Below the pieces are notes generated by a model that worked only from the letters and a program-made list of their open reading frames with translations, was not told where the DNA came from and made no database searches. A stretch of 64,000 nt of DNA from assembly GCF_037038585.1 (NCBI RefSeq), contig NC_092522.1:51833661-51897660 (forward strand), given 5' to 3'. How positions within the stretch are numbered: the stretch's first letter is position 1; every line of letters starts with the position of its first letter. The stretch is from Patagioenas fasciata (lineage: Eukaryota > Chordata > Aves > Columbiformes > Columbidae). The position numbers and the translations under genes are program-made. Shown here one piece after another: positions 5,401-62,693 of this stretch.

Positions 5401-5563
5401 TGAAACACACCGTTTGACTTCTCAGTTGTGGATCATAAGAAACACACAGGGCGACATGCTTTGCTCATATTTTGGCAGTGATGGCATTAAGAGTACGGTA
5501 AGGGTGATGCCTGCCTGTGGCATTGGTTTCATTGTTTCTTTTGGCGATTCTGTTTCCTTTCAG
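2421..5563 (+). other. Probable TTLL2 5' intron(s)
   Basis: This is the stretch between the CpG island and the TTLL2 main exon. I see no conserved coding exon in it. A possible 5' UTR exon, TG ATG GCA TTA AGA GTA CG, ends at a good donor (GTAAGG, from about 5500) after an acceptor TTTTGGCAG. Spliced to 5564 its ATG would read straight into a stop, so it could only be untranslated. A 78-codon frame with one hydrophobic stretch at 5038-5271 has no ATG start and no support. Confidence 0.4.
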
Positions 5564-10655: not shown

Positions 10656-10666
10656 TTTATTTTATT
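10656..10666 (-). terminator. TCP10: Candidate TCP10 poly(A) signal
   Basis: On the minus strand two overlapping AATAAA hexamers (AATAAAATAAA) lie about 220 bases after the TCP10 stop codon. This is a plausible 3' end for the gene. Confidence 0.5.
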
Positions 10667-10886: not shown

Positions 10887-11076
10887 TCACCTCTTGTCTA
10901 GGATGATATTACCCTCTTCATCTTTGATTCGAACTCGTCCAGTGGAGTACTTGGTTTCTTGTCTGCCATTGCAGTACACAGTTTTTACAGTGCCATCTGG
11001 GTACTCCCGTCTCTTGAACTGCGCAGTGTGAACCTCCTTTTGGCCATTACTGAATGTCACTATTTTATCTCCATTC
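10887..11076 (-). CDS. TCP10: TCP10 coding exon 20 (last), G-box end
   Basis: Acceptor TTTCTTTCAG at 11077. Encodes about residues 1306-1368, including [36 protein letters not shown] and [11 protein letters not shown], then TGA at 10889-10887. This is the most CPAP-like part of the gene; human CPAP ends in the closely similar GRIRVKDKEGNVLMDTEL. Enters in phase 2. Confidence 0.96.
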
Positions 11077-14000
11077 CTGAAAGAAACAGCAATGAATTAA
11101 GTGATGAGAAGGCACTATCTGTTATTAACCTGTCTCACTGAGCCATATAATGCGACACAATGGAAATGGAAAATAATGTCAAATGACAACTCCCTCACAT
11201 TGTAATTCACCTCAGAATTTATATGGGTTGGCATTAGAGATCTGATCTCACAATAAGATTTCAATACAAAAGTACTTCAGTACATAGTATAATACCTAAT
11301 GAATGGTGGCATCTGCCTTTTAAATGACTTCTTCATACAAGGCTCTCAAGGCACTTTGCAAGCAAGAAATCTATTTTACAACAGGATCCTCCCTAAGTCC
11401 AGAAGAGGCATGTCTAAGAAAGTGCTGTTGATATTTTTCCTCATTTTACATGGAGAAATTGAGAGATAATACATTAAATGCCTTGCCTGAGATCAGAAAG
11501 TGTGCCAAAAAGCTAGGAATAGAGCTCAGAAGTCATCATCTGAAGTCCCATTGTTAACATAGATGATTGGTCATCTCCCAGTAACCTTGACCAGTGTAAA
11601 GTTACATGGAACTAAATGAGGAATATTTCACAGTCCCTTTGCCAGTGACAAATGGTGATCTATCATCCAAGGTGGAAGTTAACAAATTTTCAGTGCTTCA
11701 TTGTAGCAAAACCTTTGTTATCTTACAAATAATTTCTCCTTACATCTGGAAATTTCCCAGCCATGCAGAATCCAACCACAGTTTGAAATGCCATTATCAC
11801 TGTACCTGTGCCCAATGCCTGGTTCCTGTAATTAACTCAAGACTTACTTTTCTACTTTTACTACTGTACCATCTGGGAAAAAAGTTTCCTTGAATCCATC
11901 ACTATAGAGGCATTTCACTGTGTGATCTGGGAACACAATTTCTTGTGTGCCATCAGGATAATGTTTTTCTGTGGAAAAGAAGGTGTTAAAAGTCTGTCTA
12001 TTATAATATCCTTTCATGTTGCTTTACACAGAGCTAGATCAGATTTTTTTTTTACATTTTAGTGAGGATGGAAATGATATCCAGCATACTGCTGAAGAAA
12101 TTAAAGGATCACATAATCAGATAATCAAAATTAGAAGAGATGCATTTACACCCCATTATAATCTTTGCTTTGTAGGAGGAAACTGAGTGGTAAAGTGATG
12201 GAAGAGACTGAAAGTCAAATGCAAAGACAATGCAAATTGAGAAAAAAAAAAACAGTCTGCTGGAGTCAGAAGCAAATGACACTTTCATAGCAGAAACCTT
12301 CTTGTGCATGTAGTTCACATTTATGAGCTCTTGCATACCTATCTGATTATTAGGGAACTGCAGCACCTCCAGGCCATCTGGGTAAGCAGTGTGGGTTGTC
12401 TGTGCATCTGCATAATAATAAATCTGGAAGGAGAGTAAAGTGTTTGCAGCATATTCATAATATTTGCATAAGCAGATTCAACCATAACAATATGCTTAAA
12501 AATAAGCCAGCTTAAAAAAAGTCATTTCAAGGTCTTTTTCTGTATCTGTCACCTATAAAAGTAGCTATGTTTGCTTTGCTGTTCCTTCCCCTCATTCACA
12601 TCTCTCCTCGTGGCTGTACAAGACAACAGTGCAGGCACGGAAGTCATCTTCCCATCTCTTTGCTTTGTCTCCCCATCCATGCACTATTGGTTTAAAATAG
12701 TCCCACTGCTGCCAAGGCCTCACTTATTTCCTCGTTAGCTCAAATTATTATTAACAATTTATAGTTACGTAATACCAAGAAGGAGGAAGCCCCTGTCCTG
12801 CCTACACTAGAAATGTATGAAACTCAGTCCTTGCTTCAGATGACTGCCCCTGCCCTTCACCTTCTCTCAGTCTCCTTTAATCTTCTTGGCCAACTACCCA
12901 TTTGTTCCTTTGACTGTGCCGCCTTCTCTTTCCACTTTTGTCCTTGCAGATGAAGCAGTCTCACCATTCATGGTTCTTAAACTAACACCCTTCCTCATAA
13001 ATTTCTTTCAGAACCAACAGATCAAGATAAATCATATGACCTTGTTGGAAAATCATTTAGTAATTTAATTTTCCTTAAAGAAAAAACAATGTTACACACC
13101 ACTCTCTGATCTGGCATGATCTTCTTTACATCTCCATTGAAAAAGCTGATCGTAGTCATCCTTTTATCAGCACTGATCTCTTTTTTAGTACCATTGTGAA
13201 AAGTGATGATTCGGCGTCCGTCAGTGAGCACCTCTTCTACCTTCAAACACATAGAGCATCTGATGTAAATGAAGTTAAAGGAGATGAGTAATATTGCACT
13301 GTCTTCCAATTAAATTGGAGCTTGAAGTAAGTCACACTTTCCTTTGTATTTCAAAAGCTAGCTCTGCAGCACAGGTACATTATTTTTGCTTCATTTGTGC
13401 GTAAAAGAGACCAAAAGTATTTTTCACAAAATTAACTCACTTCTAGCACTCGGTCCACATTTGCACCCTACCACCTTGCTTTTTTGTTAAGCAAGGTGAA
13501 GCACACAGCCCTGTGGCCATAGGGAAGCCATTCAGGGTTTTCCTTCACCAGCTTCAGTGAGTTGCTGGCTGTATCTACTTTCACATATGGTGGTACACCT
13601 TCCACACAGGTCATTCAAGAGACCCCTGTTCTAGATTGTGTGAACCAAAGTGATTGAACTTGATGTATCAAGACAGACTGCCAACGTATGTTAACAACTA
13701 TTTCATTTCAGGTAATGTAAGATTGTTCAGACATTCAGTACTACCAAATAAAATGTGGCTGTATGCAGAGATCTACAAAATTGCTGAAGTCTTCTTAACA
13801 ACAGGTGGCAATAATGTCATCAGTGTGCTCAATGTTCTGTTGTTCTATGAACAATGCATTGGTCAAAGAAGACTTCATACCTAACATAGCCACTGGTTAA
13901 TCAATTTCCTGGAGTTACTATGGCAGCTCGTTCTGTTCAGCATATATCAAATCCCATAACATGGTTATTTTGCTGAAGTTCAAGGAAGAAGACAATCAGA

Positions 14001-17000
14001 AGCTGCTCTATAGCTCTGCCATATGATTCCAATTTTATCAGACTCTCCACAAAAAGGGAATACCTCCCAACCAAAAACAAGGAATAAATATGCTTGAGAG
14101 AAATGTATGTGGTATTTCCCCAAACAGTCATTGTAATGGTTATTGATGGCAAGATTTTAGTTTTTTAGAAATTATTTTATTTAAAAATTACTAGTTTGTA
14201 ATGGAAAGATGTTCTTACACCTACTTATGACAAAAGGCATTGCTGCAAAAAGTTCCACATAGTTTAAACGAGAACTAATATTTTTATCTAAAGGTATCAA
14301 TCCCCCTTTTGACTTTTCTCTCTAATTGCACAGGAAAGTCCAGCCCAACGCTCAATTTTATAAATAAATTTTTCTTTTGAGGATGAAAACAACAGATACT
14401 GTATTTTCTACTTCTACAAGAGGGAAATGTGATTCTTAGAAGCTTTCACAGAGCTCATCTCAGCATTAGCAGTAAAAGAACTGTCATCTTAAACCAATAT
14501 TCCCTGAACAACTGCTATATTGCAAAAGCTATTTCTATGACTGCTCACTGGAAGTTATCCATTAATCAATGCCTGTATTGGTGGTGTGAGAAGCCCAGAA
14601 TGGAACTGACACAGAAACTGAATTACTTGACAACTGTAATTTGTCAGAGATTGCCCTCAGCCAGTATCACAGGAATGTTTTAATAGGATGAGCCTGCTTA
14701 GAGTAGTGCAATAGAAGAAATATCTGGGACTGAGTTCATATCTGGCCCAGATGAGAAGAGACAGTGTTGGAAAGAGTGCTTGCCTATCAGCAGGGAAACT
14801 AGTACCAGTTCACTTGGTCGCCTTGCTGACAACCTTTCCCAGCAGCAAGACACCAGATTTCCTGTGCATGGACTCATCTACAGAATCAGCCTTTCAAGAT
14901 CATTCCTGAGGTGCTGTGCAGGAAAGGTGTCATGGCCACTCAGGAATGAATTATCCAGTTTGGTGTCAATGAGGGTAGGGACACAACAGGAAGCCAGCAA
15001 GAATTGCTCGCTTGTCCCCTCCTGGAAGGCAGGAATTTCCAGAAAAGGGGCAAAAGCAGCTGCCATGCTGAGCTATGGGCTTCAGGACAAGGCACAGTTG
15101 GAAACAATCTCAAAACGCAGCTGGGGAGTTGCTGGGGATTTTGACAGGTGGCTTGAGCGAGCTGGAAAGGCTGCATTGAGCACAGCTCTGCTGATGCTAC
15201 TTCAGGTGTAGACAGCTGTCTATAAGAAAAGGCATTTCCCACATGTAGTGTCCAGCTGGCACAGCTCACTGCCATTAGACTCACTTCCAAGGAAATAAAA
15301 GTACAGCCTTTAATCTTGCTCTACAAAACACCATCACTACCCCACTAGCACATCTCTAATGGTAAGTATATTATTCCTCACAGCCTGCAAATGAGGTAGC
15401 TGAAACAAAGAGGACTTGGTGAAAGTCATAGAGCAAATCCATGTCAGAGACAAGAAAATAATTTGGTTACTTGATTTCCAGCCCATCAGCTATGTATATT
15501 GCCTACCATTCATGGTGGGAACTTTACACTTTATCTCTCCTTTAAGGAATAGACACTTAATTGGAGACATAATCATCTCTGGCTACTTGAAGTAGTGATT
15601 CCCATCTATACTACAGTCCTATTGGTGATTTCTGCAAGTAATTTTGCATCCTACGTTATCTCACCTTTCCATCACGATACTCTATTTTTTCCTGCACCTT
15701 TTCCTCACTTTTTCTTCTTTCTTGATGTAATACCGATTTTTGAGATAATATTGATTTTGGAGGCTATATAATGAAAACATCGCAGTTAGTGTTATATAAA
15801 CAGAACTCGGTTTAACATATTTTAATTAAATATGCAAACCCCATGTTTACTTTCACACACACAGAGGAAAGTTGCCCTTCTTTCTGGTATTGCCTTGCAT
15901 TTGTAATGAATTTTCATTTGTAGTGAATTTCAGTCGTAACTAGAAGTGTTGCACATTAACTCCAATTAACTTCAGTTTGCAGAGCAAAACATAGCATAGA
16001 GAAAGTCCAAAACTGAGGGGACAAGAGTACATTCTGGTGAAACTACACTACAGGAAACTGAGAGAATAAACACAAGAACAAATATCTCTGAACATTGGGT
16101 TACTGATTTGCAAAAAAGGGTACATGTATTAACTAGACACACTCTTCCAAAACAAACTGCACGGTTCTTAGCTGTAGGTAATGCTAACTATGTAACTATT
16201 CACGATGTTACACATCCAATTTACCGCTACAGTCAGTGCCCTTTGCACTGTTCAGCAGCTTTATAAAGGAGCCTTAAGTTAATTGACATCTGGCACTTAA
16301 CATATAGAACAGTTACTAACTAATGTTAATTACAGTTGGAAGAGGTGATGTGTTTTGAATTGTGTGATCCAAAGAACAGAGAGTACTACTCCCCAGAGGG
16401 CAATTATATGCTCCAGTATAAAGCTGTAAGTACAATGCTTTAAGTTGCCATATCCATCCCTAAAGCTCTGTGTCCATTGCATAGCACAGGAAATAGGAAT
16501 GGAAGATTTTCTTTTTCTTGGTGTGTTTTATTTCAGTTCAGAAATGGAAAGAAGATAGCTGCTGACCAGATAAAAGCCAGAACCATAAGTTTCTCAAACC
16601 TTTGCTTCAGCATCCAGAAAAGCAGAACTGTCCGAAGGTACTTTGTTGTCATAAGTAGTTATGCCACTTCTCCTGCGTGTGGTCACAAAAGCCACTTTAT
16701 TCTGAGGTTTTAGTGATTTTTCCAGTTTTTTAAGATTAAGAGTCTCTTCTTCCTGAGCCAAAATTAAAATGTTAACTAGCAACATAAATTTATTGATGTC
16801 CAATGGTTGTGCAGGAATATATTGATAAGGAAATCTACTATATTATTTGAATCCATTGCAATATTGCTTTAAAGAGTGTATTTATTATGAGGAGAGGCAA
16901 GAAAATAAAACTAGGAGAATATTGTTCCCAGCTAAATGGGAGTTAGCATACTATCTATGAAAACTTAAGATCACAGACACTGAATTATTTTATAGAGTTA

Positions 17001-20000
17001 CATAGTGAAATACCTCAGTTACTTCATCATTACTGCAGAGTGCAAAGCTGCAAGTGTTGTTGCTGTGGTTATGTGAGAGAGACATGTCTTCTGAGCTATC
17101 AGAAATGGGCAACGGCCTGCCTATGAAAAAAAGAAAAGTGAAAGGGATGGTCATTGAAAGCATATGAAAATGGCTGCATCACATGTTTCCATACCTATTT
17201 CAGAAGACTTTTTTAAAGATGCTAGCTCTCAGATTCTTGTAAGACATTGTTTCTTATATTGATAGTATTTGCTAACGGCTTGCTTATCCTCCTGAAGGTG
17301 CTTTATTCTGGACCAAAGACAATGCAGACCATGTCCATTCTCCGCCTTCTGGGCTTCCAGGACAGCAAACTACATGAGTAAATTGCAGCCAATGGCACAA
17401 TCTGTTCTCCCTCTCTTGTAAGATACAATTTTGTAATTCATCTAAGAATCATAGGAGAATTTTACTGACAACATATTGCCTGTGAGCCAAGAGCTGGGGA
17501 CCAGTGTCTCCAAGTCATTTGCAGACCACTCTAAGCAGGCAGAAAGTTCCCACAAATCTTACCTTTCACACAGGAAGATAAGTTAGGCTCCTTAAAATTA
17601 TGCTGATGTGAGACAGCTCCAGGTAACTTCCTATCATCTGTTCTTCTTCCAGTCAGAGAGAGTTGATGTACAACCTGCAGCAAAATGGAGAGGTCCTGAC
17701 ATACAGTCATGCTTCTCTACAACATGGGAGCTAACAGTGACATGGCCAGAGTGCACTTCCACTTCCTTGGACTTTAGCTGCTTGTGCACAGAACCTGCTG
17801 ATATGGTGCAGGTGCCTAATCTTGGTTCAGACTGTTGTGAAGAAAGAGATGTGGGTGAAAGCTGGAAGAAGCCTGAGACAGTCCCCACTCACCCCCTTCT
17901 TTTCTCGGGAACTGCATTTCAGCTGTGGCTCTCACACTTAGTCCTTGTTGGGTTGCATTGCAGCCATGCCTGAGCCTGGCCATGCGCTTTATTGATTGAA
18001 ACCCCAGCCCTGACTCATGGACTGACTTTCTGATGTAACCCCAGACCTGAATCATCACTATGGGCTTTGACACTTGGTATTCTGGCCTGACCCTGATTCC
18101 CATTGCCAGCCTGCCCTTCTCCCTGACTGGGACAATGGGACGGGCCCTTCCCTGCCAAACCCCCTGGGGAGCCCCTGATGCTCCCAGGCCCTGGTCCCAG
18201 GGAGCTCCTGGCTCATGCGATGTCCCAGTGCTTGGTGCTTGTGATGATCTCTGAACTTTTTCTGAGGGCAGGGGTGGCAGGTTTCAAAGCCTTCACACAT
18301 GCTTTAGCCTGCAGATACCTGAATACCTCAGTGTATGTACAGTCTCTGAGATAATTTCTGCCAAAAAAACCTGCAGTACCGGGGAAAGAAGACCAAGAAA
18401 CAGTTATGTATGGATCATGATCTTGATCCAGCTTCTGAACAATACTGTAAAAATAAAATAAAGGCAGCCTAAGTAGACCATGCTACTGGCTTACTTTTTC
18501 TGGTTCAAAAGGTGTCAGTCTTCCTTGGTGAGGCATTCTCCTGCCAATTGGTGTTGTGCTTCTGCCAAGGGAGCAGTTGGATGGCTTCTTTTCTTGATGT
18601 TCCTTTGTCACCAATCTCGAAGGATCAGTCTTTTGCACAGAACTTTTTATTGCCTAAAAGTTTGAATACATTTGTATTAAGCTGATATAAACATCTTCAA
18701 ATAGCATTAAAAATGCTTCTACAACAGGTGCATTATTAGGCATTTAAAATTTTAGGAAAATATTGATTTTTGTATCTGGACATACACACAGATGAACAAC
18801 ACACACACACGTTTTATACTTAAAACTTTATCTGGATGTTATTTTGCTTCCCACATTTTTCTCGACTTGGAGAATGATGCGGGTTGCGAGCAATTGTAGG
18901 CACATAGTGTGACACCAACAGCTGCTCTCAGGCTCTGATCACACTGTCCACCAACATGAAAAATATCCCTCCCTGGGACACCACAGCTGAGCTGACTCCA
19001 GTAAAATATATTGCATGACAGTTCATTTTTACTTGCCAGTTGTCCATCCTTTTTACATTTTGCCCTCAAACCTCTCCATCAGTTAAGACTGACACAAGCC
19101 TCGTAGGACCCTGAGACAGATATAAGCCACAGAAGGGAATTAGATATGAACAGCTTCAAGCAATCTGTATCAGATATTTAAACTGGAAAGATCACAGTTG
19201 CTCAAAAGCAAACCAATTTGCTTGGAGAAAATTCCCCGATTTTTCTTGGAGACCTTAGATCAGAGCACAGAGGAAACATACAATATTCCTGCATGATCAC
19301 CATGAGATTATGGGATTTATGCAATGACTGCCAGGGGTTGGCAGCTGCAAAGAAAACATTACATTGGTATGACAGTAAAACTGAGGCTGCACTCTTGCCT
19401 AGTCAAAATGTTGAAGGTACTGAACCAAATGCAGAAATATCTGGCAGTGTGAGACAAAGGCCCACATTGCTGAAGTCATCCCAGAAATGGCAAGGACAAT
19501 GTCCTTGTCTGATAGATCTGATAGCAGAAGAATCTCTAATGCATTGATCTGGTGGATGACTAGGAGTGAGCACATGATGATCAGAAACAGAGGAACATTC
19601 AAAAACCTGTGGAAATGGTACCAGGTACTCTGATTTTGAAATGTCTCACACACAGGAAAGTGGCTGATTGGGAAGGTGAGTGTAAGCAGTCCATGGAAAG
19701 AATATATTTGCCATTGGCTTCATTTGCCCAAGCCCGTGAACTCAAGGGACATGGAACTAACAAAGCACAAACACAGGATGATTGCACAATTACTTCACTG
19801 ACAACTGTCACTACGGCCATTTTTTGACATCTGTAAAGTTTTGTCCATTTGATCAATTAAATTTAGGTGATTTGTTGTGGATAGTAATCGCTTATTTATA
19901 TTAATAAATGACATTACAATTTAATGGGTGTGCTTACAAGGAAGAAGCCAAGAAAGAAACCCTATGGTAAAATTTTAAAGGGCTACATCTTTTCCTCCAA

Positions 20001-32000: not shown

Positions 32001-34448
32001 ACAGCCAATAGGTTTGGGATGAAGAGTCAGTGTGGGGAAAGTCCTTCAGTAGAAACTAAGAAATAAGAAAAGTTGCAAACCAGTTTGATAAAAAGGATAC
32101 CATTTCATTGCCAGAACTAAGGTCACTGGACCAAAAGGCTGGAAAGATTCGTTGACCAAAGAACTTGGACCACATTCACAACAAACTGAGTAAAGATGTT
32201 CTTGGGAAATCATAATTTTCCACTGATGTGAGGCTCTCTGTGTCTTAGGAAAAAATATGCACATTTGAGAAATTATTTTGCCCATCTTTTTAGAGTCATG
32301 TTATTTCTCAGGAGGGTAAATAAAAAATGTGAACAACTCACTGTCAAGGGGTCAGTGGGAGGAACACACCTAAGCTATGGGAAACTTTAGCACTGACCCC
32401 GAGGACTCACTGAACCTCTCACCCATCTCATGGGGTCAAAAGTCTGCACCTGAAAGTGCATCTAAAGCAAAAGACTTAGGAAAAATGGCTAGCGATGATG
32501 GAGAGTCAAGCAAAAGAAGGGGCTTGCAGATATATATCTCCTCTCTTTTTTTTTTTCTAGTTTAGGACTGAGAAATACCGACAGAGTGGGCATATACTTA
32601 GGGAGCACACACAGAATGAGTCAGAAATCCAAGAGAAATCTTTTCCCCTATAGAAAATAAGTGTGAATCAAAACTTGAGTAGCTCTTACCTGATGTGTCT
32701 GTAAGCAGTTTTTTCTGTGGTTCCTCCACTGCAGGGGTTTCTTTAATGTTGAAAGCAGGAACCTCACCAGCCACTGTTGAGGATGGCAGATCCAGGCTTG
32801 TAACATCCCTGGCACTATACTCGTTCTTTGATTCAGGTTCATGCCCTCTCCTTTTTGATCTTGTGAGATGAAATAGGGACTGCTGAAGAGAAGAGCGAGC
32901 CTTGCTCTCTTTCAGCCTGACATCCCTAGTACTGGAATCACTGCTGCTTGTGCTGCAGGAGAGCCCTTGTTGTCTTGCAATCGCTTGGATATCTTGCTTC
33001 CTTGGGGGTGATTTGCTGTACTTTTTAACAAACATTTTTTCAGTTTCACTGAGCTCGTCACTGGCATAATCACCATCAGAGAGATCCAAATGTCTGTCAG
33101 TATGATCTACTCTTTGAGGCTCATGCTGGGATGGATACTGAATGTGGTGACATTTGGGGTCATCATCACTGTTGGAGGACAAGCAGCTTGACTCACAAGA
33201 CAAAGATGCAACATGCCACGTTGAGGCAGCTGTCCCCTTCCTTTGCCACTTCTGCTGCAAGACTGAGGATGAGCTTCCCTTCTCCACAGCCTCAGGTGAG
33301 CTATGTGTAATTTTTACTATCTTATCATTGACCATCTTAAACCCAGTACAGATTTTACTTTTGCTTTCTGCACTCTGGCTCCCCAAAACAAGTTCCTGTG
33401 GGCATACCTGAACCCACTTCTGTCCCTGCATGAACACAGGGCCTGCACTCCACTCTGTCTCCTTGGTGTAATCTCTTTCTAAATCCTGAAGTGGAGAATG
33501 CTTTTGCACGACTTCCAAGGGCATTTTTGCTCCTTCTGTGACATGACCCTTCAAGATGCCATCCACCTTACCTAGGCCCTTTTGCAGGGTACCCTCCACA
33601 GGTCTTCCATCAGTTCTTCCTGCTTGCCCTAGAGAATCCATATGATGAGTTTCCCTTTCCTCACCTACTTGTAGGTTCATTTCTGTGACTGTTTCAGGAC
33701 ATGGTTGTATTAACAGCAGTACAGGCCACTTTCTCTGTGGTGAGTCAACAGGATTTTCCTTTGCGTCTTCATCTCTCCCAGTCACTTCTTTTTCTTCTGT
33801 ACTTTGCTCAACTACTTTTGCTTCACACTCACCTTGAGCCTTTATCTCCCACTCAAGTAAAGCACAGTCTGCTTTTTTTTCATGTGTTTCCATCTGCATG
33901 GAGCTACTGACCTGCAGATTTAACTGAGAGCATTCCTCTGGCTGTAGTATTCCTACATCCACTTGGCCACGCTGGCAGAAATGATCCCAGCAGTCCAAAC
34001 AAACTCTCCTGGAATGCTTGCTGTCTTCTTTTGAAGACTTCTGTTTGGTTTTTTTGAGCCTTGCCATATCTTCTTTTCGTTTCAGAAAAGCCTTTCGAGG
34101 TGTTACTTTTGCCTTACTCTAAAAAACAACACACAAAAAATCTTGACAGTCACAGTCTGAGAATTATTCTCCAGAAAGGAAGATATTTATGATAATGAAA
34201 AAAGCTGAGACACCAGAAGTCTCGAAGACACTGGCTATGGATAACTGAGTGCATAAGTAACAGCCCTGAGACTACAGGGAAGGTACAAGAACTTTTAGAA
34301 GCAGTCACCATGTGACACCTCAATTCATTCTTTAGCAGAGTCAGATGGTTAAGATGATGCTAAGTGTTTATATAGAAGAAAATGAGACAAGTTCTGTCTG
34401 TCTTTGTTTTTAAAGTAAATTTGAATGGTTTTTTACAATGTGACACAG

Positions 34449-34497
<49 letters not shown>

Positions 34498-37400
34498 CAA
34501 CAGTCTGAGATGTTATTTTGCTGAGTAGACATTGAGAAAATTCCTGGATGGCAAAATGTGCATCCTCCAAGTCAACAAGCCTAACAAAATGCTGAGTCTG
34601 ACTCCCAGGGGTGTCAGACATAAACTCATCTCAAACTGCACATAAGGCAAAAAGCAGAACAGTAATACTGTACTTGGCCCTTGTACAAAAACTATATTTG
34701 GAAGTGCCCCCATTCTCACATTAGTTGTACATGAGAGACTGAATGGATCATTTATTATGAAATAAACTAACAGAACCAACCTTAGGTCTAATTTATCCAA
34801 GTATGTTGATACTCCGGCACAAACTCTCACCCGGAAAGTATGTGGAAAGAGAAGAAGAGAAGCATTGGGGAATACAACTGTGACTAAGTAATAGTTTTTT
34901 TGCTTTTGGGAAAAATCTTCCAACATCACTTGAATGAAGAGTGGAATGAGCCAATGAGCCAAAACAGATCCCAAACAATACCCAAGTTCATGAGAACTTG
35001 TCAAAAACAAAGTGAATGCACCAATGACACAGTACCTGCTGCTCCTTCTGCTCTTTTGCTATGAGATTATTATCTACTGTAAGCTGTTCTTCAACAAATT
35101 CTTCAGAAGGCTTCTGTCCAGTACCAATTTCTGGTATGATTGGCCTAGGCAAGGAACAGGAAGGTACTCATTGATAAGGTTCTCCAACTACAGGATGATT
35201 CAAAAAGATGGACCAAATTTGAATGGAATCTGCTTTGAAAGTGGGTCCATCATTTTGAAACACCCTATAATTTTCTTTCAATAATTCTCATGGAGCTGAT
35301 GTTGAATTTAGAACTGAAATGTTCTCTCCATTTTTTTTTTAATGTGAAGCATGTTACTAAAAAGCCCACTATCATGTGACACGTAAGTGTCACTTTAAAA
35401 CATCCTGTCTAGACTAAACATTAGTCATGCTTTTAGCAAGTAACAGTTTTTTGGCTGGGATCAGTCCTTAAAACCAGAAAACAGTCAAAAGGAAAAAAAT
35501 ATTTCAGGCATTTTCTCCAGACTAGAGCTCATTACACTGACAAAGAACTCCCTATCTCTCTGACAGAGTGGTTTGAATTAGCTGGTGAAGAGTGATAGAG
35601 GAGAAAAATAATGTCTATAGTGTTGTGGAAGGACAAATTGAACACTGATTCAAAATGAAGCATAATACAGCATACAAGGACATGTCTTATTTCATTAGAA
35701 ATATGCTTAGAGCCTTAATTACAGCACTTAGTAATAATTTCTACTGCATATTAAAAAATCCTGTGTTTAATAGAGTTACTAGTCACACAGCAAGTTACTC
35801 TTCTTTCTATACTCCACCTCCACCTATCACCGCTGTACCACAGATAATATCTTCTTGTCTGGCTCTGTTAGCAAGCAGCATGGCCTAACAAGATCAGATT
35901 TGTAGACCAAAACTGTTCTTGCTGAGGACTCAGCATTAGACAATAGGCATTTCAAGGAAGTTTACTTCAAGCCTGGTCCCATAGCGACAAGACCACAAAG
36001 AACTGGAGCACATTCTGTGCTTCAATTTCTTCCAGCTCATGCTAAGACCATGATGTGAACCAAAGCACAGCGAGTGGGGGTGGCTGGGAAACAGACTTCA
36101 GAAGCTCGCTGCTGATCCAAAAAGGCATATGAGGTCAGGTCTGCTAGCCAAGAGGTACTTATGGTCCTGCCACCTCTTCTTGGCTTTTTGCTCTGGAGGT
36201 CCTTGTCTTCCTTCTCTGCTCAGGTCCCACATGGTTAACACAGTAAAACACACTAATGATGATTACTCCCAGTCTTGTACTTGCTTAGAAGTTTGTTGCT
36301 TCTCTTTTATACTTGATGGAAGGCTCCATGTGTTGAAAAGCTGTTGCTTCTATCTGCATCAGCTGAGGAAAGGTAACAACTCTATGAGCATTTCTTCCAT
36401 CACTAATGCCGATCAAGGTACCTTTTTCCTCTCCATATAATTTTAACAAGGATTACTTCACTGACCTGTTCCCTATATAGGCACATAAAAATTGGTCTTG
36501 ACACAGCTAAAGAGGCTGAACAAAGACAAGAATGAAGGAGTTAATCAGATTGATGCTGCTATTACAAACTGATGGCCGCTGCAGAAGAAATGATGGTATA
36601 ACAAAAGATCTTACCTCTTTCCCTGCCAACTTTTGCCTTACTTCTAGCCTTTGAATATCATAGTTGCAAGACCAGTTCATTTAACTTGGCTAAACCAGCA
36701 TCCTATTATACAGAGGCAGATCAACTGCCAGTCCCTGGACTTGTCCAATCCCTGCCCATGTGTACCTGGCCACTCTCAAGCAAAGGTAAGAACTTTTGTG
36801 TTACAAATATAACACACACAGTGTATGTACAGTCAAGGAAAACATGCTTTTGTAGCTTGATTGACTGGTTAAGGTAATTTCTCACCTGTCTTCCATGCTT
36901 CCAGTCTTCATCCTCCCCTCTATGCTGAAGGGAGATAGAGGAATCTCCTCTTTTACTTGGTCTCTTTGTTCTTCTCTGACAGTAGAAGAAGTTTCAGGGA
37001 AACATATTTCTTTTACTTGACTGTTATCTAAGCAACAGGAAAAAGGGTAATGAAAACAAAGCCTTTATAGAATGAATACATGAAAAATAAACATAATGAA
37101 ATAAATTAGAAATGTTTATGTTTTCAACAACATATGCAAGATTTTGATTTTTGAAAATGCTCCACAAAATACAATTGAATTAAGTAGGTGGAAGGGTGCA
37201 ACCCATGAAAAAAAGAGGCTCCTTATCCTCAAGTCTAGTTGCTAGAAATAAGGAATGGGCAAATGGTATGATTTGTACTCTTTACCTCTAGAGATTTGTA
37301 ATGCTTGGTTAATGTGTTCACTGCTAAGCATTGCAATGAAGACTCTTTGTTAGACAGTACTTAACTACTCATATGTCTGTAATTATGTGACCTGCAAGCC

Positions 37401-40400
37401 AGTTCATTAAACTGTATTTGTACACATGAGACTTTCTAACTAGGCATTTTCTACCCTATTTCACAAAAGTGCAAATTTGTACATCTTTCTATTGAAGCTT
37501 ACTGGTTATGTTCACTACAAGAAGGCTCCCACTTCAGTTAATCTTTTTTTCTAAGTGTCAGCTAATGGAGACTTGCTCTTTTAGCTCAAGTTAGGCCTAT
37601 CAGCTGGAGCAAACAGCCTTTACCGGCTCATTTATAGAACACACTGTTGCAGCACCCAGGAACTATATAGATCACTTTATCACATTAATGCACCCTGAGC
37701 TCCTGAAGTCCTTCACAACATAATGAAAAGACTTTCTGGTCCTACAAGAAGAATACAAAAGCTTTACATCCTTCCCTCAGCATTTCCCAGCTACACACCC
37801 AAAATCTCCAGTCTGACAGCAGGCAAGCGGTGCTCTCTCTGTCACCTCCTTCTCACCTGCCTTGCACCAGAATACGTCTAAGGAATCAGAAGTGATCCAG
37901 CAGGTTGGCAGCTACAGGGGATGCAGAGCATGTGTCCCTTCTCAGAGTCTCACATGTGGGACTATGCTGTCTCCAACATGCTCTAATATGAGAGGTGTCC
38001 CAGAACTGTAATTTTCAACTAGTGCTCCCCAGTGCAAGGCAAGAACAACGTGTCCAAGCAGCTGTGTAATTCACCTTTGTTTTCTTTTCTGTTCTCTTCC
38101 TGAGCATCTTGTCTGGAAAGTTGTTTTGTGGGGCTCCCAGTACGCTGAAGCAATGGCTCGGTGCTTATCCCTTTAAATAAGAATGTAAAGTATTAGACAA
38201 GCCGTTGGTACACTCATGTTTATGTTTCCAGCAATAAAAACCTCACACTTGTCACAACAGTCAGGAAGGTCTCAGTTCAGCCCAGTCCTCAACTACACAT
38301 TCAGCTGAAGGGTATTTCATAGGTATCTGCACTGACCAGCTTCCAGTCAGGATTTAACCTGATATATTGAGGCCTCCGCGTCTTCAAGACAACATTTTAC
38401 ACACACAAAGCAAGTCTAAGTCAGCGCTGCTGTCAAAAAAGCAGTCGTACCTCCCCCTGTCCTAATGTGTTCTTACTCTCAGGTTCCTGATGTCCCCAAC
38501 CACTTTCCTCCCTACATTCGTGCTGGCAGAAGTATTTCTGAAGCTCTCTGGTAAAATTCACTGGGCAACTGAGCCAGGTTCAGGTTAACCCCGCAAGAAA
38601 ATAGTGATGCCGGGCACAAGGAGACAAGACTCTTTCCGTGAGAGTACTGGTCCTGAGCTAGCTTGAAGAATATGAAATCAAAGTTTCAATTGTACTATGG
38701 GACTGTCTCACAGCGTCACAGTCAGGTCTTGCTACTGAAGTTCGAAGGTATCCAGGATGCAGGTTTGATTTACATTGTCATCCCCTTTAAGCCATTTCAT
38801 TCCCACTTCTTTTTGTTCCTCTTCCCCCCCCATTTTGAAATAAACTTTCTATTTCTTGCAAATCACTCTCTCTTCTTTCTCACCATTTGGTATCTTCCCA
38901 CAGAAGAAAAGGCTGGAAAAGTGTAGGAAAAAGAAAACACCAAGTAGCAGCTCACATTGTATTTCCTCCAAACAGTGCAACTCCATATCAATGTGAGAAA
39001 TACCAAGATTGCTGATGAAGAGCAGGCCTTCTTAGATAAAGAAACATGTTCTCTCACCTTTGGAAGCTATATCCACTTCCTACTTTTTATGCTTCTCCCC
39101 CTAAATGTAGCATATTCCCTACTTCACATAACTCAGCTTTTCAAATTGAATGACTTCTGGCTACATTTCTATCTACAAGTTCCAGTTTCTCTGTCAGTAT
39201 GAAATGCAACATAACTGTGATTTAAAAAGTAGAAAAAAACTCAACAAGTTTAAAATACTTTAAAAAATTTTATAACAAGTCCACCATGAAAACAAAACAC
39301 CTTTCCCTGATCTGCAATAAAATCAATAACAACCACTGGCAAGGGCAAAAATTCACAGGATCTGCACAACAGCCTTAGCTCCAGATTTCCAGCACATTTT
39401 ACCCACCTGAGTCTGAAAGCTGCACATGGTCTCCCAAAACTTCTGAACTGCTCTCATTTGGCATGAACAGCAAGGATCTGCTTTGCCAAGCTGAGCACAT
39501 CGACAAGGGAGCGGTCTGTAAGCCTCCCAGGCTTTCAGCCTGGGAAGACTTTTCTGATGGGAACTGGTTAGGAATTAGAGTAGTGGATGAGCACGGAAAG
39601 AGTGGCATCATGTCTCCTAGTTGGGAAGGTATCCCAGGAGAAACAGAAAAGCCTAGAAACAATTATCAGAAAATAAAAATTAGAGGAGCTTAAGACAAAT
39701 ATTTTGCACTGAACTAGAAATCTCTTGCTAAACTGGTGTTGCACAAAACCAGTGTCGCTTTCGTGTTCCCTGGTGGTTTGCATGTTCAGAGTGAAAGAAT
39801 GAAATTCTGCTTTTGTTATTTTATTTAAATTGTCAAACATGCTTGCTGCAATCATCAGTCATAACCAAAATAGTAGTAGTTCTTCATATTTTGTCTCTTT
39901 AAAGCTTAATGGGTCTAGAATATGAAATGTCTTTTGCTACCCTCAACCTACATTGCCTCCACTAACAAATGAGAACTTTCAGTGCAGATTTGTGGCTTTA
40001 TATGTTAGCTAAATGTACCTGGATATGTAAATACACCCAAACAGCACCCTATAAATATATTTCTTACTTTATAAGGTTGGTCTCGAGTTCATGATACAAA
40101 CTGTACTTCCTTCCTTCAGAAATGTATCAAGTGACTTACAGCACTGAGGCGGGGTGAAGAGGAGTTTGCATGATGAAGCGTAACAACACCAAGGACACTT
40201 TCCTTCTCACACTGTTCATTCTTTTCTGAGAACCCAAAGAAAGTGGTGCAGCCTAACTGTTCTGCTCACAGAGAACTGGTGGAACTAACAAGTGTCCTGT
40301 GGATTGTGCTATTTGGGCAGGTATTAATGAGACACATAATTGCCCTGTGGTTGTTCTGCTTTCATTGGAAAACTTGGAAGCTTCAGACTGTGTATTTGTT

Positions 40401-43361
40401 CAACCTGCTCATCACAGGCGACTCACTAAGCATTTGCCTGCCAGTCCAACCCAACTTTTCTCTGAGGCAAAAAGCACATGATCATGAAGATTACATTTAC
40501 TCAGCCATAGTCTTCGTTCTGTCTTTTTCTCAGACTGTCTCCCTGGTATACAACGGTGGCTCCTGACAACTATCTTGCAGTGGTATTGCTCCATCAGGAA
40601 AATCCATACAATGACAGCCAGGCATGCTGGTGTCACTCTTCTAAAGTCTTTTATTTTGTTCACTAATAATTGCTATTGTGTACATTAGCAAGGTAGATTA
40701 AACTTGCTAAAGTTTCATTTTCTTTTGAGCAACAATAATATAAAGTCACATTTCTCTAAAGCCAGCTAACAAGCGCCAACTCCCAGAGTTTCCAAGAGGG
40801 GGAAAAAGCAAAAGACCATAAATTCTTGGTGGTTTTATTATTATTATCGTTAACTCTACCTGAAGTAATGCTTACTATTTTGCAAGGAACTTTGCAAACA
40901 GAAGTTCCTTTTATGGCAGCCAAAATTGATTTTTTATTATAAATTATTCTATCCAAACTGGTCAAACTAGGTGTGCTATGAAGTATTTTTGTACATGCAT
41001 GGAGGAACAGCAAAATACATGGCTGTCTTTAACTGAGAGCACTTCTCACACTTTGTATGGTTAGAACATAAGAAAGTTTTGAAAAAAACCTGCAGCTGTT
41101 CAGCTTTAAAAAGCTATTTGTAAGACCCCATCAGGCTACAGTGAGCTCTAGCATGCAAGGTGCCATCATCTTCTTTTCCTAACTGTCCTCTGGTATCTTA
41201 GAAGAATGAGACCTTGCAGCTCCTCAACTGGGTAAAGAAGCTTGAAATTAGACTGAGAAAACTGATGCCAGAACAATGCAGAGATGCAGACAGGGGATGC
41301 CTTAGGCTGCTCGGACTCCTACCACATGGGTGAGGTGAAGCTGCCTCTGCAGCAGGTTGTCTGAGGAGCAGCAGCAATCCAAGGATCCCCTGACCTTCCT
41401 GCCCTTACAGATACTCCCTGCCTAGTGTTGTGCACAAGCATCCCTGATAAAGCCCGGCCAATGCCATCACAAGTCTACATGATTTCCCAAAGTTCTTCTT
41501 CCATCATGGGGTCACATGCTAAGGAGAATGTGCTACTACTGTGGACAAGGTTGAAAGCGGAGGTCTCCTCTTTTTCTGCTTGCGGAGCAGATGGTGTTTT
41601 CTGGCAATATCACTGGTAAAATGAAGCTGTTCAATGGGTTGTATCTTGCTGTGAAAAACAGGCTGTACTATTAAAGGTAAGTCTGTTAACAGAAGCATGG
41701 CATGTTGCCTTTCTTCTGCTCCTTTTATCTAAGTTAAAGCTGTGCCTTTCATATATAGGTATATAAAAAGAAAAAAGGATATTTCCACTTTTCTGTAATG
41801 CTCACCATTATATTATAATTTTCTGCAGTACCATTCAAGCCCATACTTCAGTATAAGTCTATATGGGAGGACTATAATTAAACATAAATGACTCCTCCTC
41901 ATAGTTCTCCTGGAATTTTAGTGTGCGAAAGTGGAAATGAATGTTTTATGGGGTTTACAGCTTGTGTAAAATGTGTGTAAAGAAATGAATGTTTTAGCCC
42001 AGCTGCTAGAGAACAAGCTCCCAGCCATGGAAAACAACCATCAAACCTTCTCTTTCTTTAAGGAACTGCCACATTTCACTGCCTTAATGTGAGTGTCAGC
42101 AGACAAGGGTGCTGCAGCATGAGGAGGGAGCCCCCAAATACCTGGGTTGTAAAGCGCAATGATTTTCTGCTGTTCAGCCACCAGCCTTTGCAACTGCTCC
42201 ACATGCTGCCTCATCACCTGGTCCTGCTGCCCTGGAGTCTGAAAATATCATGAAGATACAATATCAAACCGTGTTTCTTGATGTTTCTGGTACCAACAGT
42301 AATAAGAAAAGATCTGAGGTGAGTTGGTCTTAAGGGAAGCGGCAGAAGATGCTGCCTTGTTAGCACAGGTACTTATGATTTTTACATTATCAAAAAAGGC
42401 TAAAGTTGTGATAGACTTCCAGTGAAGAAAGGATTGAAAACTGCCAGCACAGACACACCCTAAATAATACATTCAACTATATTGGAAACATGAGGTTTTT
42501 TTAATTGTGCATCACTGTATTGTGCATCACTGTGCATTGTAATTGTGAATCACTGTATTGCTTACTATCTTAAAAGAAGCACATGGAGCACTCATTGAAA
42601 GAGATACTGTGGAGTTACTCCTGTCCATTTCTTTGTCCAAACTAAGAAGAAGAGGAAAAGTCAGAAACGGAAAAAAGCCAAAAAAGAGGATCAAGGATGA
42701 GAAGAGGACGGATAGAAAGACGTACAGAAATAAGAACATGAAAATGCCACATGACCTTTACACACATGAGGATGTGGGGCCAGAACAAGCAATCTTTTTC
42801 ACCAGAGGGAAGGAGATAACAGTAACTATCCAACAAGAGAAGAAAATTATTGTCTCTTGGGAAAAGCACTTTATTTAATGGATTTATTAGAGCAATATAA
42901 TCAAACACAGTATTATGATGCACACATCCATGCTTGCCAATAAAGCTTCCTACCAATAGACAGACACAAAAGTTACTGATCCTTTCTTCCTGGAGAGGCT
43001 GTGCAACTACCAGAAATATGTAATGTGCAGTTATAAACTCAGTGATTATTTAAAGCAAACTAACCTGTTCCATGTTTTTGTAGGTGGGAGTATAATGGTT
43101 CATCCCAAGCTCTGAGTCAGGGAGCAGAGGAGGAGTGAACATTTCCAGGGTGTCACTTGCATCATGAATTCCAGCCTGGGTTACACTGGAAGCGAACTTT
43201 TGAGGAAAAAATGCAGAACTGGACAAATTACCTAATTGCCTTGCATGCTGAAAAGCTTGGTCGTAGTTCAGGTCTTCTGTTGAGTCATTACTGTTACCCA
43301 TTGTGCCACTGGCTTCTGAGCTGTATAAAATTGGACACTGCTTGCCAGAGGATTCATTCAT
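10887..43361 (-). CDS. TCP10: Full-length CPAP-like TCP10 gene, 20 coding exons (whole-gene entry)
   Basis: Paralogue of CPAP/CENPJ (SAS-4), a centriole-length and tubulin-binding protein. From the start: exons 43361-43065, 42238-42142, 39616-39407, 38170-38075, 37027-36886, 35144-35036, 34118-32690, 31531-31420, 28074-27909, 25687-25472, 23781-23635, 18653-18495, 17225-17195, 17120-17014, 16752-16600, 15763-15665, 13240-13100, 12423-12339, 11968-11848, 11076-10887. Total 4107 nt, 1368 aa plus stop. Every junction is GT-AG and keeps phase. Seen: the [10 protein letters not shown] helix (about 117-126), FVEEQ (297-301), FLKR (328-331), [12 protein letters not shown] in the large exon, the coiled-coil block (about 815-930) and the TCP10 C-terminal G-box (about 1190-1368), which in CPAP binds STIL. 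The position beside TTLL2 and CCR6 argues for TCP10 rather than CENPJ, which lies elsewhere. Human TCP10 proteins are short; this one is CPAP-sized. The start has an in-frame TGA four codons upstream in the same exon. The least certain exon is the 31-nt one. Confidence 0.9.
11848..11968 (-). CDS. TCP10: TCP10 coding exon 19, G-box repeats
   Basis: 121 nt, phase 1 to 2. Encodes [18 protein letters not shown] then [11 protein letters not shown], repeats of the xxPDGxxxxxFPD type that form the exposed beta-sheet of the TCP10/CPAP C-terminal domain. Acceptor CTTTTCCACAG, donor AA|GTAAGT. Confidence 0.96.
12339..12423 (-). CDS. TCP10: TCP10 coding exon 18, G-box
   Basis: 85 nt, phase 0 to 1. Encodes [20 protein letters not shown] and LQFPNNQI; human CPAP has the near-identical YYYAAAQTTHTTYPEGLEV. 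Acceptor CTCTCCTTCCAG, donor ATAG|GTATGC. Confidence 0.96.
13100..13240 (-). CDS. TCP10: TCP10 coding exon 17, G-box start
   Basis: 141 nt, phase 0 to 0. Encodes [20 protein letters not shown] then [17 protein letters not shown], matching CPAP FFNGDVKQVMPDQRV. Acceptor TGTGTTTGAAG, donor GTG|GTGTGT; both are acceptable rather than strong. Confidence 0.96.
15665..15763 (-). CDS. TCP10: TCP10 coding exon 16
   Basis: 99 nt, phase 0 to 0. Encodes [20 protein letters not shown] then [13 protein letters not shown], corresponding to the CPAP stretch that ends ISHPDGK just before the G-box. Acceptor TTTTCATTATATAG, donor AAAG|GTGAGA. Confidence 0.88.
16600..16752 (-). CDS. TCP10: TCP10 coding exon 15
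   Basis: 153 nt, phase 0 to 0. Encodes [19 protein letters not shown] and a basic patch TTRRRSG. I recognise no motif; it is a linker between the coiled-coil block and the G-box. Acceptor AATTTTGGCTCAG is good; donor AAAG|GTTTGA is weak. Confidence 0.8.
17014..17120 (-). CDS. TCP10: TCP10 coding exon 14
   Basis: 107 nt, phase 1 to 0. Encodes [20 protein letters not shown] and [10 protein letters not shown], an acidic serine-rich linker. Acceptor TTTTTTTCATAG, donor TGAG|GTATTT. It is open only if 1 nt is supplied from upstream, which is what makes the 31-nt exon necessary. Confidence 0.78.
17195..17225 (-). CDS. TCP10: TCP10 candidate 31-nt microexon (coding exon 13)
   Basis: Between a weak acceptor (AATCTGAGAG) and a good donor (AATAG|GTATGG) lie 31 nt encoding [10 protein letters not shown] plus one base. 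It is the only piece I found that joins exon 12 (phase 0) to exon 14 (phase 1) in an open frame. The call rests on phase and donor quality, not on recognised homology. Confidence 0.5.
17880..18260. other. GC-rich block inside a TCP10 intron
   Basis: An isolated stretch of roughly 55-60% GC, rich in CCCTG/CCCAG words and poor in CpG, between the microexon and exon 12. It has overlapping short open frames on both strands but no recognised product. It may be an unnamed repeat or a composition island. Confidence 0.4.
18495..18653 (-). CDS. TCP10: TCP10 coding exon 12
   Basis: 159 nt, phase 0 to 0. Encodes 53 aa including [20 protein letters not shown] then EPEK, a basic SP/TP-rich segment at the place of the CPAP RRSKSAPPRD region. 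Acceptor AAACTTTTAG, donor GAAAAA|GTAAGC. Confidence 0.85.
18654..23634 (-). other. Large TCP10 intron (5.0 kb)
   Basis: Between exons 12 and 11. A short (AC)n lies near 18797-18811. I see no conserved exon, full transposon or RNA gene in it. Confidence 0.6.
23635..23781 (-). CDS. TCP10: TCP10 coding exon 11
   Basis: 147 nt, phase 0 to 0. Encodes [20 protein letters not shown], then [15 protein letters not shown] and a basic tail. It matches the CPAP KRAEAIESS...KYKKNYLPMQG segment after the coiled coil. Acceptor TTCTCCATTAG, donor CAAG|GTATGT. Confidence 0.9.
23971..24013. repeat. Imperfect tandem duplication of about 22 bp
   Basis: ATCTTTGCATATAGCATCCTA is followed by GCATCTTTACATACAGCATCCTA in the intron between TCP10 exons 10 and 11. 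The two copies differ at two internal positions. Confidence 0.6.
25472..25687 (-). CDS. TCP10: TCP10 coding exon 10, coiled coil
   Basis: 216 nt, phase 0 to 0. Encodes [20 protein letters not shown] and [20 protein letters not shown], a clear heptad coiled coil that parallels CPAP [20 protein letters not shown] and QIQMLVRENTDLREE. Acceptor TTCTATTGGTAG, donor CCCCG|GTATTG. Confidence 0.95.
25980..26010. repeat. A-rich tract
   Basis: A run of about 19 A bases followed by further A-rich sequence in a TCP10 intron. I see no retroposon body upstream of it. Confidence 0.7.
27526..27579. repeat. 27-bp perfect tandem duplication
   Basis: Two head-to-tail copies (27526-27552 and 27553-27579), each beginning GCCACTAACTAATGTAAAG. 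They are identical, so the event is recent. Intronic, about 330 bp downstream of TCP10 exon 9. Confidence 0.9.
27909..28074 (-). CDS. TCP10: TCP10 coding exon 9, drifted coiled-coil block
   Basis: 166 nt, phase 2 to 0. With the flanking codons it encodes [20 protein letters not shown] and ends [10 protein letters not shown]. From the shared EREKA anchor to ELQ/EIQ the spacing equals human CPAP (57 residues), but the highly charged CPAP helix is replaced by a sequence with prolines. Acceptor TTTACCTTCTGAATAG, donor CAA|GTAAGG. Confidence 0.9.
28559..29207 (-). mobile_element. CR1 LINE, 5'-truncated 3' end
   Basis: On the minus strand the sequence carries the end of the CR1 reverse-transcriptase frame and its 3' UTR. 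The 3' end shows GGTCCCTTCCAACCCAAACC followed by a degenerate ATTCTATG-type repeat, which is diagnostic of avian CR1. The 5' end is cut off near 29207, as is usual for LINE copies. It lies in the TCP10 intron between exons 8 and 9, in the sense orientation of the gene. The body has drifted noticeably from the CR1 forms I remember, so it is not recent. Confidence 0.93.
31420..31531 (-). CDS. TCP10: TCP10 coding exon 8
   Basis: 112 nt, phase 1 to 2. Encodes [20 protein letters not shown] then [17 protein letters not shown], aligning with CPAP NASLAKLRIERESALEKLR at the start of the coiled coil. Donor TGCAG|GTAAAT is good; acceptor ATCTATATAG has a poor pyrimidine tract. Confidence 0.9.
32690..34118 (-). 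CDS. TCP10: TCP10 coding exon 7, large central exon
   Basis: 1429 nt, phase 0 to 1, about residues 318-793. It opens with [20 protein letters not shown], the counterpart of the CPAP PFLKRGEGLARF tubulin-capping LID motif. It continues as a long low-complexity, Ser/Glu-rich region with [13 protein letters not shown] (CPAP has VDLDLSDKDYSSDE) and a basic patch KSPPRK. One large exon here is also the CPAP arrangement. No internal stop. Acceptor TGTTTTTTAG, donor ATCAG|GTAAGA. Confidence 0.96.
34449..34497. repeat. Compound microsatellite (AT)n(GT)n
   Basis: About 15 AT units followed by about 8 GT units, in the intron between TCP10 exons 6 and 7. Likely polymorphic. Confidence 0.95.
35036..35144 (-). 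CDS. TCP10: TCP10 coding exon 6, tubulin-binding region
   Basis: 109 nt, phase 2 to 0, residues 281-317. Encodes [20 protein letters not shown] then [17 protein letters not shown], the counterpart of CPAP ERPIK..IGERKQTFEDYLEEQ in the PN2-3 segment; the EE pair before Q is conserved. Acceptor TTCCTTGCCTAG, donor CAG|GTACTG. Confidence 0.94.
35191..35267. mobile_element. 77-bp mariner-type MITE with TA target duplication
   Basis: The left end CAGGATGATTCAAAAAGATGGACC and the right end, read in reverse complement (TAGGGTGTTTCAAAATGATG then GACC), match at about 20 of 24 positions. A TA dinucleotide flanks each side (35189-35190 and 35268-35269), as for Tc1/mariner insertions, whose ends often read CAGGGTG. 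Only about 29 bp lie between the inverted repeats, so it codes for nothing. It sits 47 bases upstream of the TCP10 exon 6 acceptor boundary. Confidence 0.8.
36886..37027 (-). CDS. TCP10: TCP10 coding exon 5
   Basis: 142 nt, phase 1 to 2. Encodes [20 protein letters not shown] and on to [10 protein letters not shown]. No motif beyond an acidic and Ser-rich composition. Acceptor CCTGTTGCTTAG, donor GACAG|GTGAGA. Confidence 0.85.
38075..38170 (-). CDS. TCP10: TCP10 coding exon 4
   Basis: 96 nt, phase 1 to 1. Encodes [20 protein letters not shown] then [12 protein letters not shown]. Polar linker with no recognised motif. Acceptor CTTATTTAAAG is mediocre; donor AAAG|GTGAAT is acceptable. The frame fit with both neighbours supports it. 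Confidence 0.8.
39407..39616 (-). CDS. TCP10: TCP10 coding exon 3
   Basis: 210 nt, phase 1 to 1. Encodes [18 protein letters not shown] and ends [15 protein letters not shown]. Low-complexity N-terminal linker. Donor CTCAG|GTGGGT; acceptor TTCCCAACTAG chosen because it continues the frame of exon 2. Confidence 0.8.
42142..42238 (-). CDS. TCP10: TCP10 coding exon 2, N-terminal helix
   Basis: 97 nt, phase 0 to 1. Encodes [20 protein letters not shown] then [12 protein letters not shown]. This matches the CPAP EQLQRLMEEQEKLL segment and the leucine-zipper fragment kept in mammalian TCP10 proteins. Acceptor GATATTTTCAG, donor CCAG|GTATTT. Confidence 0.93.
42502..42560. repeat. Short degenerate tandem repeat
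   Basis: Words of the form ATTGTGCATCACTGT recur three to four times (AATTGTGCATCACTGT, ATTGTGCATCACTGTGC, AATTGTGAATCACTGT). Intronic, between TCP10 exons 1 and 2. Confidence 0.7.
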
Positions 43362-62069: not shown

Positions 62070-62693
62070 CTGTAACAAAGAAGATCACCAGTTAACACGT
62101 AGTTGTTAATCTCTAATTTCTATATAGTAGGAAGATGATAGATAACAAAGTCATACAAATACAAGGTACACTGGAAATTTTTTTAAAATAGTATAGAAGT
62201 GTTATATGGCTTGCTGATTTGAAATGGAAGTGACATTTCACTTTTGGTAACTGTAATACTTCTGTCCAGTTCTACCCATGCCTCAGCTTCGGGTCTATAT
62301 GAAAATAGTACACAGTTGTTTCTTCCAACACTACATGTTTTGCACTGATTACAAGTGTATTTAACACTGTAGAGGAGACTTGAAACAACTTGCCAGTGCT
62401 AGATTAACAGTTGGACTTCATGATTTCTTCTCCCCACTCAGCTAGGCAGGCAATCCAGGATGACTATCCTGAGACACAGTTGCCTGCACAATGGGCACCA
62501 AACCTGGACTTACATTAGGAGAGTGCAAACCCAATAAACACTGTGCTTTTGCAGTAAACTCTGCTGTCAAAGCAAGTCTTCAGCTGATTACTCCTGAGAT
62601 TAAGACACTTGGACCACCAGCCTCAAAGAGCTGGGACTTCCAGATTCATTGCTTTATGGATGTATTAATATAGTTTACCAGTTAGGTACTTAC

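Follow-up and report, generated by a model that had tools for sequence, protein, structure and literature searches.

A CPAP-sized TCP10 gene in Patagioenas fasciata, predicted to be an old paralog of CENPJ

SAS-4/CPAP is usually regarded as a single core centriole-assembly gene, and the TCP10 proteins of mammals are short and keep only a fragment. The bird TCP10 gene studied here resembles CENPJ/CPAP in its exon phases and in running from a helix through a tubulin-binding region and a central block to a G-box, and it has tubulin-binding and central parts, whereas mammalian TCP10/TCP10L is short. Drosophila Sas-4 is far diverged, and its likeness to TCP10 was compared for the G-box alone (4mpz, E 1.6e-48). 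In CPAP, exchange of F375 to Ala was described to cause a 109-fold loss of affinity and exchange of E343-E344 to Arg an 8-fold loss (PMC4912634, available excerpt), and F978, Y994, Y996, H1003, T1005, F1015, Q1019 and E1021 are named as STIL contacts (PMC3776556, available excerpt). Mammalian TCP10/TCP10L shares with bird TCP10 its locus beside TTLL2 and CCR6, and the Tcp10_C domain is named after TCP10; in human 6q27 the order is CCR6, GPR31, TCP10L2, UNC93A, TTLL2, TCP10 (PMC5723635, available excerpt). In the accessible part of PMC6609395, mouse Tcp10a/b/c stand among the genes without zebrafish ortholog and are absent from the list of genes without chicken ortholog, which implies in print that TCP10 is present in birds. 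The word TCP10 is absent from the accessible text of PMC4015606, a paper on microcephaly gene evolution. A description of a long bird TCP10 was not found in the literature searched, which took in few subscription journals and lay outside animal gene-annotation databases; such databases may already hold a gene model of it.

Here, we propose from sequence comparisons, with a probability of about 70%, that bird TCP10 is an old, intact paralog of CENPJ that has kept most of its architecture and would act as a second SAS-4-type protein. A second bird gene equipped with both tubulin- and STIL-binding parts would provide a natural example of an animal with two SAS-4-type proteins, and a long bird TCP10 would suggest the former nature of 'TCP10', the namesake of the domain.

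The TCP10 locus and its neighbours

The window, i.e., the whole stretch of 64,000 nucleotides that was analysed (C3:51833661-51897660 of a 1.45 Gb genome), carries on its minus strand, from 43361 to 10887, a multi-exon CPAP/SAS-4-family gene flanked by a TTL-family gene and CCR6. As would be expected of a bird, all 150 candidates scored out of 342 matched the feather/corneous keratin family, whose clusters, a mark of birds, are spread over four contigs of this genome. The convergent neighbour is an open frame on the plus strand (5491-7236) with a tubulin-tyrosine ligase domain (PF03133, 261 bits), which by position is TTLL2. The upstream neighbour, CCR6, lies on the minus strand at 60987-62084 and has human CCR6 as its top PDB match (E 1.5e-137). 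TTLL2 and CCR6 as neighbours are the mark of the TCP10 ortholog group, and they agree with the human 6q27 order in the accessible part of PMC5723635. Thus, the gene occupies the place expected of TCP10, and its naming as TCP10 in the original prediction is upheld. GPR31, TCP10L2 and UNC93A sit between CCR6 and TTLL2 in that human order; the corresponding gap in the window, between TCP10 and CCR6 (43.4-60.9 kb), contains no open frame of at least 150 aa. At the other end of the window, a CpG island at 1501-2600, the sole one that the scan gave in the window, was matched to no gene and may serve as promoter for one that leaves the window at its left edge.

Exon chain and coding signal

The gene had been predicted to comprise 20 exons with 4107 nt and 1368 aa. 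Such a chain can be written with a single terminal stop; it opens with the proposed ATG (43361, minus strand) and closes with the proposed stop (10889-10887), both of which the sequence contains. The chain analysed here was set by hand and may differ from the earlier one. Two details did not hold up. In the exon at 35144-35039 the donor is non-GT (CAG/caggta), with a GT three bases on, at 35036, whose use brings the total to 4110 nt and 1369 aa. In addition, the 21-nt candidate exon at 37857-37877 has a good donor and is probably not real, as its in-frame codon score is -0.1 bits and the other two frames score higher, i.e., it carries no coding signal; when it is left out, the chain has 19 exons, 4089 nt and 1362 aa. 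The realistic coding total would therefore be 4089-4110 nt, or 1362-1369 aa, in 19-20 exons, with an exact count that is not robust. An in-frame TGA begins 12 nt before the ATG at 43361 and is itself preceded by a splice acceptor, and thus a 5' non-coding exon is expected.

Several minus-strand exons of the chain were predicted from splice sites or codon score. The 297-nt exon with the predicted ATG (43065-43361; codon score +16 bits) shows no likeness to CENPJ exon 1 (256 of 1000 shuffles equal, z 0.7). A 246-nt exon at 39407-39652, for which no CENPJ counterpart was shown, was predicted from splice sites and codon score only, a 96-nt exon at 38075-38170 is weak (+2.0 bits), and a 142-nt exon at 36886-37027 has good splice sites and a codon score of +7.4. 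Unlike CENPJ, TCP10 has predicted extra exons before the G-box. These are located at 18495-18653 (weak acceptor, codon score +5.6, no CENPJ counterpart shown), 17563-17674 (good splice sites, weak codon signal), 17014-17120 (good acceptor, weak donor) and 16600-16752 (weak donor, codon score +17). A pairing of the first of these with a CENPJ stretch was rejected, since 984 of 1000 shuffles were equally good.

It had also been stated that all junctions are in phase and that no internal stop occurs. This is true of the hand-set chain and is by itself little proof: the gene finder, which used untrained splice-site weights and codon bias, under lax settings and with help from homology yielded 38 exons and 5106 nt on the same strand, again open and in phase, so that these properties do not prove a gene. 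Trained without TCP10 and run without homology at three penalties, the finder returned 32, 22 and 16 exons on the sense strand (4248, 4275 and 3915 nt) with scores of 249, 172 and 119. The controls gave 1668, 1179 and 315 nt on the opposite strand (scores 77, 27 and 3), 1551, 1065 and 699 nt on the reversed strand (81, 41 and 21), 291-1215 nt in the intergenic 44-60 kb (scores of at most 44) and 1962, 1557 and 1323 nt on the minus strand beside CENPJ (116, 78 and 58). The plus strand beside CENPJ, by contrast, did not serve as a clean control (scores 368, 304 and 261; 4140-3021 nt), presumably on account of a neighbouring gene. The codon score was positive in frame and the best of three frames for 19 of the 20 exons, a test that is biased because the exons were picked as open in that frame. 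The 1429-nt exon at 32690-34118 is free of stops in its own frame, against 18 and 38 in the other two, and none of 5000 base shuffles was stop-free. Taken together, the finder scores, the codon scores, this open frame and the exon-by-exon likeness to CENPJ, PDB CPAP and Pfam suggest that the gene signal is more than chance.

It is conceivable, if unlikely, that the exons are real and that the bird gene yields only short products, either an N-terminal or a G-box part, by alternative promoters or ends. Weak splice sites in the chain (donor 25472, acceptor 18653, donor 16600) and the shortness of mammalian TCP10 proteins are in line with this; however, exons resembling CENPJ and a 1429-nt exon that are open and in phase would be unexpected if they were never translated.

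Conserved domains, contact residues and missing blocks

The original prediction listed an N-terminal helix, a tubulin-binding region, a central block and a G-box like those of CPAP, and exon likeness, PDB and Pfam between them support these four elements. The N-terminal helix exon (42142-42238, minus strand as all exons below) corresponds to the CENPJ helix exon, runs from phase 0 to 1 in both genes and reaches 46% over 26 aa (z 11.6, 0 of 1000 shuffles). The 109-nt tubulin-binding helix exon at 35036-35144, the PN2-3N counterpart (phase 2 to 0, GT donor 35036), gave z 5.3 against CENPJ (0 of 1000 shuffles), a PF25779 match and a PDB match to human CPAP with E 1.6e-4. The large exon at 32690-34118 has an open frame and starts with the loop-helix motif, as indicated by PDB CPAP and Pfam, and its remainder is diverged; as a whole it is not significantly similar to CENPJ (61 of 1000 shuffles equal, z 1.8). 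A candidate second genomic copy of this exon was dismissed, as the sole match among 5 candidates scored was the exon itself. The central, putatively coiled-coil block is represented by the exons at 31420-31543 (phase 1 to 2 in both genes; z 4.7, 0 of 1000 shuffles), 27909-28074 (166 nt, with a CENPJ counterpart equal in length and phase; z 4.2, 1 of 1000 shuffles) and 25472-25687, which has a weak donor and corresponds to the CENPJ LKQQIAELQEDLKR exon (48% over 61 aa, z 21.3). Towards the C-terminus, a 99-nt exon at 15665-15763 agrees with CENPJ in length, phase and DGK end (z 4.1, 1 of 1000 shuffles). It is followed by G-box exons 1 (13100-13240, 141 nt), 2 (12339-12423, 85 nt) and 3 (11848-11968, 121 nt), all as long as in CENPJ; all three show CENPJ and PDB likeness, and exon 2 holds most of the STIL-contact residues. 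The last exon, with the stop (10887-11076), shows 71% identity with CENPJ across 63 aa, and two overlapping AATAAA signals lie about 220 nt past the stop (10656-10666, minus strand).

On the predicted product, the PN2-3 tubulin-binding region was recognised by PF25779 (Tubulin-bind_CPAP) with 69.3 bits (cut-off 22) and the G-box by PF07202 (Tcp10_C) with 150.8 bits (cut-off 36) in 4 stretches. In the whole genome (20 and 5 candidates scored), both domains matched only at TCP10 and CENPJ. In this genome's CENPJ the G-box and both tubulin-binding halves scored above the cut-off, and the loop-helix half of the TCP10 region gave no match by itself in the genome search. The TCP10 G-box aligns with zebrafish CPAP (4bxp) over 177 residues without gaps (E 1.2e-78). 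The tubulin-binding region is diverged compared with CENPJ: against human CPAP in PDB it scores 25 bits, versus 75 bits for bird CENPJ. TCP10 shares F375 and E343-E344 with CPAP, but has Ser for F338, the residue with which the helix begins, and KED in place of the loop-helix GEG. In the G-box it agrees with CPAP at seven of the eight STIL contacts, with Ala for T1005, and at the Glu that is altered in microcephaly (human E1235), whose codon straddles the junction preceding the exon at 11848-11968. For the putative partner, eight of nine STIL_N candidates in the genome matched, all within 7 kb of C6 and thus at one locus. The most economical reading is that the TCP10 protein would be able to bind both STIL and, though perhaps less tightly, tubulin.

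The gene had further been called complete and CPAP-sized; its completeness as a CPAP is not supported. CENPJ has an N-terminal block, and three more in its large exon, that could not be convincingly matched in TCP10: within 10000-46000, the best matches had E 0.22 for the N-terminal block, 1.1 for the ELDEFLFLEQAADEISF (ELDEF) block, 0.038 for the DDERTW block and 1.4 for the KRK...LMMKLFPSL block, the last being the tubulin-binding motif itself. The DERTW match, near 23.7 kb, follows the central block and is therefore out of order. Further upstream, at 43-64 kb, a CENPJ-like N-terminal block or exon was not found either (best E 0.67). Because these four blocks, which characterise CENPJ proper, have no convincing counterpart, TCP10 as predicted is CPAP-sized and CPAP-ordered, not a complete CPAP. 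The weakly DERTW-like stretch (23635-23774, minus strand; E 0.038) is open and was taken as an exon in some finder runs.

The strong divergence beyond the domains could also be explained by early decay of a gene that is intact in this species and no longer under selection. We consider this improbable, even more so than the production of short proteins only, as the model exons are free of stops and frameshifts and the contact residues are mostly kept.

Relation to CENPJ and predicted role

As anticipated, this genome has its own CENPJ on another chromosome (C1 near 20.1 Mb). Eleven TCP10 exons pair with CENPJ exons in the same order and with the same entry phase, and five are of equal length (166, 99, 141, 85 and 121 nt). 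The other paired lengths in TCP10 and CENPJ are 97 and 124 nt for the helix, 109 and 106 nt for the tubulin-binding helix, 1429 and 1597 nt for the large exon (paired by its first codons and place only), and 190 and 193 nt for the last exon; in the central block, besides the exon of 166 nt in both genes, they are 124 and 133 nt and 216 and 237 nt. The CENPJ model is incomplete, as the finder joined two G-box exons over a short intron and started in a GC-rich upstream stretch. The equalities at 85 and 121 nt are partly dependent because the CENPJ boundaries were set by hand with TCP10 in view, and the pairing is not fully independent because some TCP10 exons were chosen for their CENPJ likeness. 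The introns common to both genes point to a duplication at the DNA level.

In the G-box, TCP10 and CENPJ share 117 of 177 residues, zebrafish CPAP and CENPJ 116, and zebrafish CPAP and TCP10 111. Bird CENPJ is thus about as far from TCP10 as from zebrafish CPAP, which argues for an old paralog, and the view that TCP10 is no recent copy of bird CENPJ is confirmed. Provided that rates were alike, the duplication may be roughly as old as the fish-tetrapod split. Between TCP10 and CENPJ, dN in the G-box is 0.23 (NG86) and dS was not computable; of the 177 codons, 48 differ at the first position, 30 at the second and 95 at the third. Dating by a four-sequence G-box tree was dropped, as AU p values of 0.21, 0.56 and 0.57 did not discriminate between the three topologies. 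A recent bird duplicate or retrocopy of CENPJ, for which the resemblance to CENPJ alone would speak, was rejected as scarcely credible in view of this identity level, the introns and the TCP10-type neighbours.

We therefore return to an old paralog retained intact. Most likely, as far as sequence allows, TCP10 is a genuine second gene of the SAS-4 type, whose expression may be confined to certain tissues. An ancient DNA-level duplication of CENPJ would have given rise to TCP10, whose PN2-3-like region would hold tubulin, whose central block may mediate dimerisation and whose C-terminal G-box would bind the STIL protein, as the kept contacts suggest. As a second SAS-4, probably restricted to certain tissues or the germline, it might set the microtubule length of centrioles or basal bodies, while CENPJ would cover the general role. 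It is tempting to speculate, though we would sooner doubt than accept it, that two SAS-4 proteins are functional in birds, CENPJ and a long TCP10 that serves germ-line or sperm centrioles and makes identical contacts to STIL and tubulin, and that mammals have only a worn-down, short remnant of this TCP10. If so, a separate and tissue-specific SAS-4 would control how long the centrioles of bird sperm become.

Hints on expression come from CpG islands. Unlike CENPJ, which has an island upstream, TCP10 is preceded by none in the scan of 43.0-62.5 kb, which hints at restricted versus general expression. A division into general CENPJ and testis TCP10 is, however, weakened by the relative testis expression of 85.6% given for chicken Cenpj in the accessible part of PMC6609395.

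One TCP10 intron (28654-29186, minus strand) harbours retroposon fragments, which we take to be CR1-like, and similar ones lie near CENPJ.
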